Below the pieces are notes generated by a model. That model made no database searches and had not been told where the DNA came from. It saw nothing but the letters and a program-made list of their open reading frames with translations. DNA of 38,325 bases from Planctomycetales bacterium (GTDB lineage Bacteria; Planctomycetota; Planctomycetia; Pirellulales; S012-138). A program made the position numbers and the translations under genes. Below, piece by piece: positions 26,927 through 31,146 of the stretch. The number at the start of each line of letters is the position of its first letter. Position 1 is the stretch's first letter. The DNA lies in NCBI GenBank assembly GCA_015488215.1, contig WFOE01000091.1, forward strand, positions 1 through 38,325, read 5' to 3'.

Positions 26927-26999
26927 AGAAACAGGCGGCGCCGGGACTGGGCAGGGGTGGGCTTTTCCGGGGCCGGAGTTGGCTGGTGAGGAGCTCGTG

Positions 27000-28091
27000 G
27001 TGAGCTGGCGTCTTAAGAGGGTTGGGTTCCACTGGCCGGCAATCCTGTTGGCCGGAGTCGCGTTGGTTGCGGCCGGAGGAGTCTTTTTCTGGAACCGCTT
27101 GCTCCAGCAATCGGCGGCCCAGCTCGGTCGCCAAACCGACCCAAAACCTACCAACGAATTGCTTGCTCGGGTCGGGAACAACGTGGACCGGGACTTCCGG
27201 CCTGCAATCATCTTCGAGCGTCCTTTCCCCACAATTACCAAACTGACCGTCAAAACTGTCCGGGAAGCGGAAAAGTTGCTCCGTGCCGATGAGCTGGTCC
27301 TGGGGGTGGAGATTGAGGGCCAGGCGAGGGCTTATCCGATCAACTCCCTGACCGGGCCTCGCCGCGAAGTGTTCAACGATACGCTGGCCGGCCAGCCCAT
27401 TGCCGCCACGTGGTGACATCTGTGTTTCAACGGCATCGTGTATGCCAGACGGGTCGGAGGGCGGACGCTGACGTTGGGCGTCTCGGGCATGTTGTGGCAG
27501 TCCAGCGTGGTGCTGTACGACAAAGAAACCGGCAGCTTGTGGAGCCATCTGCTGGGCGTGGCCAAAGGGGGCCCACTGCGCGGAACGCGGCTGAAACAAA
27601 TCCCCTCGACAATCACCACCTGGGAACAATGGGTGGCCACCCACCCGCAGAGCACGGTGGGTTTTCTGCCACGCAGTGCAAGGCGATTCACCCGCGGGTT
27701 TTACCAGTTGCGGCCGGGGCAGTTCGTCGTCGGCCTGCGCCGCGGAAAACACGCCCGAGCCTGGGACCTGGCCGAGTTGGCCGCGTTGGATTCCCCCAGC
27801 GTGAACGAAACCTGGCAGGGAATCCCCCTGGTCGTGGTGCTGGAGAAGGAAAGCTACACCGCCCGCATCTTCTCCCGCCGCGTGGGCAACCGGGTGCTGG
27901 AGTTTTCCTGGCAGGGGGACCGCTGGGTGGACCGGCAAACCGGCACCTCCTGGCATCCGGTCACGGGGCTGGCCCTGGACGGGGAGCTGAAAGGAAAGCG
28001 GCTCGAAGCCCTGGATGGCATTCTTTCCTACCGCCGCGCGTGGCAGGATTTCCATCCCGGGAGCAGCTATTGGCCTTCCCGGTCCCGTTGA
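27000..28091 (+). CDS. DUF3179 protein with in-frame TGA, candidate selenoprotein (UxxC)
   Basis: Read through the TGA at 27414-27416 the product has 363 residues. Residues 13-30 form a membrane helix, and the rest is a DUF3179 domain, probably outside the cytoplasm. Conserved stretches lie on both sides of the TGA in the same frame: VFNDTLAGQPIAATW before it, and FNGIVYARRVGGR, LGVSGMLWQSSVVLYD, ETGSLWSHLLG and GTRLKQIP after it. The family normally has C-P-L-C after that Trp/Tyr; here it reads TGA-His-Leu-Cys, giving Sec139-x-x-Cys142. The frame stays open for 225 codons after the TGA. GTG at 27000 is used because GAGGAG lies six bases before it. The DUF3179 function is unknown, but UxxC suggests a thiol/selenol redox centre. 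A point-mutated pseudogene or sequencing error is the main alternative. Confidence 0.8.
27414..27450 (+). promoter_or_regulatory. Candidate bacterial SECIS hairpin
   Basis: Directly after the TGA the mRNA can form GGCAU (27432-27436), loop CGUGU (27437-27441) and AUGCC (27442-27446), with a possible lower GUU/GAC pairing (27424-27426 with 27448-27450). The loop starts 20 bases after the TGA and has G in its second position followed by U. As I recall, bacterial SECIS models ask for a loop 16-37 bases from the UGA, an upper stem of at least four pairs and a G among the first two loop bases; all are met. The stem is short, so this alone is weak evidence. Confidence 0.6.
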
Positions 28092-28140: not shown

Positions 28141-28620
28141 TCAAGCCGACTCAGCATTTGGCTGGGAACGCCGCTTGCGCATGGTGACCTGGTTGCCTTT
28201 TTCGTTGTAGGCCACCTCGGACATGAAGTTGCGCATCAGCATCAGCCCGCGGCCACAGGGGCGTTCCAGATTCTCCGGCGCGGTGCAGTCGGGCACATCT
28301 TCCGGGTTGAAACCGGCCCCCTGATCCGTGATGCGGATGTGGAACTCATCCCGGGAGACACGGCACCAGATGTGGACCTGTTTATTGGGGTCCATCCGAT
28401 TGCCGTGTTTCATGGCGTTGACCAGGGCTTCTTCCAGTGCCAGGTGGATACCGAACAGGTCGCGCTGCCCCCATTGGAATTGTTGCAGTTTCTCCAGAAT
28501 CTGGTTTAGGACCTGGCTGGCTATTTCCAGATCGGTCGGGATGCGTTGTTCCCAGACCCAATCCGATTGCGTGTTGGCTTGATTCACGGGTTTGACATCC
28601 GAGGTGGGCACGGAGTTCAT
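28141..28620 (-). CDS. RsbW-like anti-sigma/ATP-binding serine kinase
   Basis: The product (159 aa) is a stand-alone GHKL ATPase of the anti-sigma-factor kinase type. It has the N box LALEEALVNAMKHGN with Glu and Asn, G1 in DQGAGFNPED and G2 in GRGLMLMRNFM. There is no His phosphoacceptor domain, which separates it from histidine kinases. Such proteins bind a sigma factor or phosphorylate an STAS antagonist on Ser. The ATG at 28620 is chosen because homology starts after it; an upstream ATG at 28671 is possible. An STAS-domain gene lies upstream in the same direction, 224 bases away, making a likely partner-switch pair. No sigma factor or phosphatase is nearby. Confidence 0.88.
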   Translation of the reverse strand: MNSVPTSDVKPVNQANTQSDWVWEQRIPTDLEIASQVLNQILEKLQQFQWGQRDLFGIHLALEEALVNAMKHGNRMDPNKQVHIWCRVSRDEFHIRITDQGAGFNPEDVPDCTAPENLERPCGRGLMLMRNFMSEVAYNEKGNQVTMRKRRSQPNAESA

Positions 28621-28844
28621 CGCAGTGGGTCCATCAAGTTCTCTTCGTAACCCGGGCGGATCGAACATCACCGGAGCGAGCTCCGGCGGCCGAACCGCCT
28701 TGAACGCTGTGTTCCGTGGGATCGGTCAGGTCTTTCGCAGCGGCTACACCGGCGCGGACGGCCGCTTCGAGCAGCCGTTAGGCTACTCGGTTTGCGGACT
28801 TTTGGCAAATAAGTCGCCCTCTCCTCTGCGGTCGAACCGCCGGT
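28621..28844. other. Spacer between the STAS and RsbW-like genes with small palindromes
   Basis: It contains CCGGAG/CTCCGG around CGAG (28671-28686), GGCGG/CCGCC around CCGAA (28685-28699) and GCGGT/ACCGC around CGA near 28829-28841. These are of the same size as the intergenic hairpins elsewhere but do not share their sequence. No gene is seen. Confidence 0.45.
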
Positions 28845-29222
28845 TCATTTAGCCGGATCCGCCTCGGCCGAAGCAGCTCCGGCGATGGCCTGCTCTCGAT
28901 CCGGAAAAACCTGGAAAAGCTTGCCCAGTTGGGTAATGCGGAACAATTCCTGCAAATAGTTCGATAGCCGACACAAGCGAATCCAACCGCCCATCTTCGC
29001 CAGATTGCGTTGGAAGACGACCAGCTTGCCCAACGCGCGGCTGCTGACCAGTTCCACCTGGTGCAAGTCGAGCACCAGTCGGGTGTGTCCTTTCTTGACT
29101 AAGGCGTTCAGCGTGGCGAAGAACTGGTCGATGCCTTCGCTTTCGGAAATCCGCGGCAATTGCACCGTCACAACGGTCGCTTCGCCGTGCGACTCCACTT
29201 GGAAAAACTCGTTGCTGCTCAT
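28845..29222 (-). CDS. STAS-domain anti-sigma factor antagonist (RsbV/SpoIIAA-like)
   Basis: The product (125 aa) is a single STAS domain. The core reads RLVLDLHQVELVSSRALGKL; the Ser pair in VSSRALG is at the phosphorylation loop of SpoIIAA/RsbV proteins, where an RsbW-type kinase acts. A C-terminal Ala-rich tail follows residue 112. The frame is open far upstream to 30071 but the upstream part is antisense to nothing conserved and has no family resemblance; MSSNEFFQVE is the natural start. There is no clear ribosome site. The next gene in the same direction is the RsbW-like kinase. Confidence 0.87.
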   Translation of the reverse strand: MSSNEFFQVESHGEATVVTVQLPRISESEGIDQFFATLNALVKKGHTRLVLDLHQVELVSSRALGKLVVFQRNLAKMGGWIRLCRLSNYLQELFRITQLGKLFQVFPDREQAIAGAASAEADPAK

Positions 29223-29428
29223 TGCTGAAAGCCGTTCTTCTGCCAGAAGGGAACTGCCCGTTGCCGGGCGAGGGAAGATATGGGCCAGGGATATGCTCTT
29301 TCTTGCCGGCGGCCCGGACCACTCCATCTTCAAGGATTCCACTTTTCCTGTCAAACAAAAACCTCTTTCAAAAGTCGCTTCCGCGCGGAGTCTTCTCGTG
29401 TCGGCGACCTTACAACCGTTACCAAAGC

Positions 29429-30561: not shown

Positions 30562-31146
30562 ATGCTGTTGGCACAAACGGGAGCCGGCACACAGGAAGCC
30601 CTGTGGTTCTGGATCGCTCTGCTGATTGCCGCCGGCGGCACAGGAGGAAGCCTGTGGCTGAGCCTGGGCAAAAAGCTCAAAGCCTGCCCGTTGTGTTTCT
30701 ACCAGCGGTCGTTTGTCATCGCCCCGTTGGGCGTGCTGCTGTTGGGGGCGTTGAGCGGCACGGGCCAGTGGGACCTGTTCGCCCTGCTTGCGCTGCCCGC
30801 GGCCACGCCCGGGCTGGCGATTGCCGTGTTTCACGTGTATCTGGAACTTTCCGGCAAGCTGGAATGTCCGCCGGGAGCCTTGAACCTGGGCAGTGTGCCC
30901 AAGCAGAGCTGCTTGATGTTCGTGCTGCTTACCGCGGCACTGGTGCTTCAGGCTCTGGGAGCCGAAGTGCCCGGGGCCTTGGGTACCGGGGGGCTGATCG
31001 CCATCGCCGTGCTCTTCGGCGTGTTGCTTGCCGCCGGTAGTGTGGCCGCCACCCCGGGACCGCCTCCGCCGCCGAAAGAACCGTACCCGGGACCGCCCGA
31101 GACTTGCCGTCCCCCGTACCGCGGGAGTGAACCCGCCGCCGCATAA
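30562..31146 (+). CDS. dsbB: DsbB-like disulfide oxidoreductase
   Basis: The product (194 aa) is a four-helix inner-membrane protein of the DsbB/BdbC family that reoxidises a periplasmic thiol oxidase and passes electrons to quinone. The first redox pair is C42 and C45 in ACPLCFYQRS, the family signature; the second is C102 and C117 in LECPPGALNL and PKQSC. A fifth hydrophobic helix near residues 128-158 and a Pro-rich tail extend beyond classical DsbB. A strong AAGGAGG ribosome site precedes the ATG. No DsbA-type partner is adjacent. The nearby DUF3179 selenoprotein could be a redox partner, but that is only proximity. Confidence 0.88.
   Translation: MLLAQTGAGTQEALWFWIALLIAAGGTGGSLWLSLGKKLKACPLCFYQRSFVIAPLGVLLLGALSGTGQWDLFALLALPAATPGLAIAVFHVYLELSGKLECPPGALNLGSVPKQSCLMFVLLTAALVLQALGAEVPGALGTGGLIAIAVLFGVLLAAGSVAATPGPPPPPKEPYPGPPETCRPPYRGSEPAAA

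Follow-up and report, generated by a model that had tools for sequence, protein, structure and literature searches.

A DUF3179 gene with an in-frame UGA

The window, the whole 38,325-nt stretch of DNA analysed here, carries a probable membrane-anchored DUF3179 gene whose reading frame runs through an in-frame TGA codon (Table 1). In the read-through frame, the Pfam match to DUF3179 (PF11376) covers residues 76–354 and spans both sides of the TGA (E 9e-56), scoring 189.9 bits against a Pfam gathering score of 27. The start codon is probably GTG 27000 (or GTG 26997), 3′ of a GGAG at 26990–26993. From GTG 27000 the read-through product is 363 aa long, with the predicted selenocysteine (Sec) at residue 139; it has a hydrophobic stretch at its N-terminus that looks like a membrane anchor, and the protein probably works outside the cytoplasm. 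Downstream of the hairpin described below, base differences between the window gene and three relatives fall mostly at third codon positions (51, 43 and 83 differences at positions 1, 2 and 3 for one of them, L010), a pattern showing that the frame beyond the TGA is selected, as it would be in a translated gene.

Table 1 Features of the DUF3179 gene and its hairpin in the window
Feature	Position	Strand	Basis
Probable membrane-anchored DUF3179 selenoprotein coding sequence	27000..28091	+	Reading frame; PF11376 across the TGA; purifying-selection codon pattern after the TGA
N-terminal DUF3179 repeat, with UxxC	27225..27683	+	
In-frame UGA, predicted to be read as Sec, first residue of U-x-x-C	27414..27416	+	Aligned Cys and TGA homologues
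Putative SECIS, 5′ stem arm GGCAU	27432..27436	+	Homologues preserve the pairing through double changes
Putative SECIS, apical loop CGUGU, whose second base is G 27438 (+22 from the UGA)	27437..27441	+	G present in each of the 33 TGA rows from the order
Putative SECIS, 3′ stem arm AUGCC	27442..27446	+	Homologues preserve the pairing through double changes
C-terminal DUF3179 repeat, without a Sec/Cys motif	27708..28061	+	Second match; hhalign against the first repeat

The TGA codon aligns with a conserved cysteine in 37 distinct homologues. In most relatives that do not belong to the Sec lineages, the U-x-x-C site of the product is C-x-x-C, so a thiol/selenol redox function is its most likely role. 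Among 73 Sec forms, 11 have no partner cysteine and instead read UxxE, UxxG, UxxV or UxxA (L074, L075, L077, L070 and L073 among them); in these forms the selenol may function with no resolving cysteine.

Several other genes in the window were assigned. A DsbB-family protein (30562–31143, Pfam E 1.4e-11) lies on the same strand, 2.5 kb downstream of the DUF3179 gene, and is possibly an extracytoplasmic redox neighbour of it. On the minus strand, an RsbW-like ATPase (HATPase_c_2, 28141–28671) is adjoined by an open reading frame at about 28850–29300, the C-terminal part of which resembles a STAS anti-anti-sigma factor; the two are probably a partner-switch pair. A Rieske-domain protein is encoded at 1186–1434, also on the minus strand (PF00355, E 1.7e-18).

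Geometry and stability of the hairpin

A sequence-only reading of the window had pointed to a GGCAU/AUGCC stem enclosing the loop CGUGU after the TGA, a loop in which the second base is G and the third U. This hairpin lies at 27432–27446 as described, and it encodes part of the FNGIVYA region, as that reading had also remarked. The distance of 20 bases from the TGA given there holds for the loop; the stem itself begins 15 nt from the TGA.

The same reading had judged that these dimensions suit a bacterial SECIS element, and the published model bears this out. The model used by bSECISearch calls for a loop of 3–9 nt, an upper stem of 4–16 bp, a G within the first two loop positions that is usually followed by G or U, 16–37 nt between the UGA and the apical loop, and a minimum free energy of −7.5 kcal/mol or lower (as quoted in PMC13188914). 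The window hairpin has a 5-nt loop, a 5-bp stem, GU at the expected place in CGUGU and a spacing of 20 nt; the segment from the UGA to +39 folds at −8.7 kcal/mol, with the hairpin present in the optimal fold. It departs from the model in that the end bases of the loop (C and U) are unpaired in most DUF3179 copies, whereas the model has them mostly paired, and in a very fixed register, with G at +22 in every one of the 33 TGA copies of the order. A scan of 27380–27520 with the Rfam covariance models returned no match up to E 5, and no SECIS family.

Taken by itself, the window hairpin is unremarkable and within chance. The 48-nt fold starting at the TGA is no better than dinucleotide shuffles (z = +0.61), and over these 48 nt another fold is optimal by about 1 kcal/mol (−10.3 versus −9.2 kcal/mol with the hairpin enforced), the five pairs having a probability of roughly 0.34. 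When the segment was recoded at random with synonymous codons, 10.8% of the versions had a stem in the same register together with the loop G, and 76% had some loosely bSECIS-like hairpin. A match to the published SECIS model alone would not convince; it is the comparative evidence that decides.

Selenocysteine machinery in the genome

The genome that carries the window encodes a tRNA-Sec (75.3 bits; anticodon tca, that is UCA, by ARAGORN), a SelB scoring over the cut-off and a SelA adjoining SelB. Its selenophosphate synthetase SelD (G000:C147:11647-12573, L053) has an in-frame TGA within the motif CAGUAGK, followed by the good SECIS-like hairpin CCGCAC-AGGUG-GUGCGG, and is thus itself predicted from sequence to be a selenoprotein. 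Like the DUF3179 hairpin, that of SelD stands after a UGA and presents a 5-nt loop with G in second position (AGGUG), and the same SelB presumably serves both. The two differ in that the SelD stem has 6 bp and its loop begins 31 nt after the UGA, compared with 5 bp and 20 nt in DUF3179.

Across the order, SelB accompanies the TGA form of DUF3179 in all 26 genomes that have it. The C-terminal domain of SelB was found in 24 of them and an N-terminal fragment in the other two, where the gene is apparently cut by a contig end. Among the 50 other DUF3179-bearing genomes of the order, the C-terminal domain was found in 23 (Fisher p 5e-5).

These observations bear on the possibility that the UGA is decoded in some other way, as tryptophan, as cysteine or by general readthrough, and that the hairpin has another role. 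We regard this as very unlikely. Nothing beyond the in-frame TGA itself speaks for it; the site aligns with cysteine and not with tryptophan, the tRNA-Sec, SelA, SelB and SelD are all present, SelB is found in each of the TGA genomes, and the hairpin conforms to the bacterial SECIS rules.

Comparative analysis of the hairpin

The comparison covered 396 genomes of the window's order, in which DUF3179 loci were searched for, fetched and aligned; a degenerate copy that contains a TGA (L078, genome G143) and a locus that ends at an ordinary TGA stop (L083, genome G175) were left out of the counts. At the position of the window TGA codon, the distinct homologues have TGA in 33 cases (26 genomes), cysteine in 37 and tyrosine in 4.

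First, the hairpin follows the TGA. All five pairs are present at the fixed register, with the loop 20 nt after the TGA, in 28 of the 33 TGA rows and in none of the 37 Cys rows, so that the absence from Cys-bearing homologues asked for by the sequence-only reading was indeed found. In four further TGA rows (L079–L082) the stem is 6 bp long, lies one base off this register and closes on the loop GGUCU; in the remaining row (L070) a single pair is mismatched. The loop G at +22 is present in 33 of 33.

Second, the stem covaries among the UGA homologues, the other pattern that reading had anticipated. In an alignment of 29 rows, 99.3% of the pair cells are paired and 29 cells carry double changes (0 of 500 shuffles); both sides vary in four of the five pairs, and the fifth pair is invariant. 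Covariation scores 0.666 in this alignment; the shuffles average 0.187, none of 500 comes as high, and controls in which the helix was slid reach at most 0.156. The comparative test thus removes chance as an explanation of the hairpin.

Third, the hairpin recurs outside the order. A second set of 40 TGA homologues was fetched from the rest of the phylum after the order set, and 35 of these have the strict hairpin with a loop start at 20–22. Under a looser definition (loop start at 20–22, at least 5 pairs), the combined sets give 67 of 73 TGA homologues and 4 of 37 Cys homologues (Fisher p ~1e-17, a value that ignores relatedness). The strict hairpin is missing from the site in 6 of the 73, and the 4 Cys homologues, which include L087, have some hairpin of 5–6 bp nearby. 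One TGA-DUF3179 locus, L116 (G511:C165:42650-43750), shows by eye a 7-bp stem in the expected position with the loop ACCUUC, which has no early G; this locus either departs from the loop rule or is a copy that does not work.

Fourth, the third base of the tyrosine codon that follows the loop behaves as a stem base. This wobble position (+27) matches the base at +19 in 51 of 51 TGA homologues, comprising 34 A–U and 17 G–C combinations: every one of the 34 copies with A at +19 uses TAT, and every one of the 17 with G there uses TAC. Because TAT and TAC are synonymous, constraint on the protein cannot explain this match, and pairing does.

The last result weighs directly on the idea that the RNA plays no role and that the bases are conserved only through protein-level constraint or codon preference. 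Such an idea draws on the conservation of the NGIVY amino acids and on the loop G and U, which derive from a valine codon (GUN) at +22 that the Cys homologues share, giving G in 36 of 37 and U in 30 of 37. Besides the silent tyrosine base, it has against it that the Cys homologues do not have the stem and that stems remain paired where the encoded peptides differ, as in SVVYG (UCCGU-GGUCU-ACGGA), LVVHE (CGCUCGU-CGUGC-ACGAGCG), LIVYQ (CUGAU-CGUGU-AUCAG) and GVGLT; we consider it extremely improbable. Equally remote is the reading of the TGA as a real stop, a nonsense mutation or an assembly error in a decaying gene, with the hairpin a by-product of the FNGIVYA codons: the hairpin of the window alone is within chance by the folding and recoding tests above, but the TGA recurs at the same codon in the 33 order homologues and in the 40 from across the phylum, the stem undergoes double changes and selection acts on the frame beyond the TGA.

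Proposed mechanism

Together, the UGA, the hairpin with its covariation, the absence of this hairpin from Cys homologues and the Sec machinery, all of them read from sequence, support the interpretation that the hairpin is a bacterial SECIS element predicted to direct Sec insertion at the UGA of the DUF3179 gene (probability about 0.96). In the mRNA the hairpin would sit just 3′ of the UGA. SelB carrying Sec-tRNA(Sec), with the anticodon UCA, would bind the CGUGU loop, with the G at +22 as the key base, and would deliver Sec at the UGA. Translation would then go on to the full-length DUF3179 protein instead of stopping at residue 138.

Evolution of the Sec and Cys forms

In a tree of 74 DUF3179 proteins, the window gene groups with two relatives from its genus (L060 and L076), all three being Sec forms. 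Seven changes of the Sec/Cys label are needed on this tree, and at least four are imposed by supported branches. One Cys homologue, L087 (G143:C14:127700-129700), is nested in a Sec clade and comes from a SelB-bearing genome; it does not have the stem at the fixed register, and the other 5-bp hairpin nearby may be a relic or a product of chance. The degenerate copy L078 (G143:C14:122500-124300), a related sequence, lies about 5 kb from it. A second Cys homologue, L088, falls in the same broad Sec group at a poorly supported fork, and its genome (G278) has no SelB match.

One tentative reading, to which we give somewhat less than an even chance, is that DUF3179 gained Sec several times and that a SECIS was built each time at the same register. 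The conserved valine codon already supplies the loop G and U in Cys homologues, so only the stem bases would have had to change. A single old gain of Sec followed by many losses is a possible alternative history.

Fold of the DUF3179 repeats

DUF3179 is an internal duplication: the two repeats align with an hhalign probability of 99.8%, and UxxC occurs in the first only. AlphaFold models (pLDDT 84 for the whole protein, 87 for the first repeat) consist of two similar beta repeats. Comparison with VIA-align retrieved almost only Rieske-fold proteins for both repeats, with best Z scores of 8.3 and 8.1, but a Z near 8 is within the range that unrelated folds can reach. Foldseek gave no hit with E below 0.001 for either model. 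The DUF3179 protein has no match to PF00355 (Rieske [2Fe-2S]) at E ≤ 1 and does not contain the CxH/CxxH cluster-ligand pair of Rieske proteins. Compared by hhalign with the profiles of eight Rieske proteins from the same genome, it gave nothing significant. A Rieske-like fold of the repeats, suggested by the models, is a lead only. The protein has no usable match in NCBIfam and no match by sequence among solved structures.

Discussion

DUF3179 (PF11376) is already listed as a selenoprotein family with the motif UxxC/T, and both reviews that list it credit its discovery as a selenoprotein to Zhang and Gladyshev 2007, in an Olavius algarvensis symbiont (PMC9312934, PMC13188914). Neither DUF3179 nor Planctomycetes is mentioned in PMC12013277 or PMC5029168. 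The window gene shares with the listed selenoproteins the Pfam family, the U-x-x-C site and the in-frame UGA; it differs from them in coming from Planctomycetota, where the motif is mostly UxxC and also UxxA, UxxE, UxxG and UxxV, compared with the UxxC/T of the reviews. The addition of a Planctomycetota member to the known family is well supported. Judged by the papers searched, what is new here is the evidence from covariation, the register fixed at +22, the motif variants UxxA, UxxE, UxxG and UxxV, and the extent of the family in Planctomycetota.

The finding has practical consequences for annotation. Standard pipelines will split or truncate the window gene at the TGA, and will do likewise in many Planctomycetota genomes: 33 distinct TGA-DUF3179 copies occur in a single order and dozens more in the phylum. 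It also draws attention to DUF3179 as a family with a probable redox role outside the cytoplasm. Finally, the stem variants, the Cys homologues and the register variants offer material on target recognition by SelB outside E. coli, and the covariation set as a whole provides an unusually clear case of a SECIS within a coding region, in which RNA pairing dictates silent codon choice.
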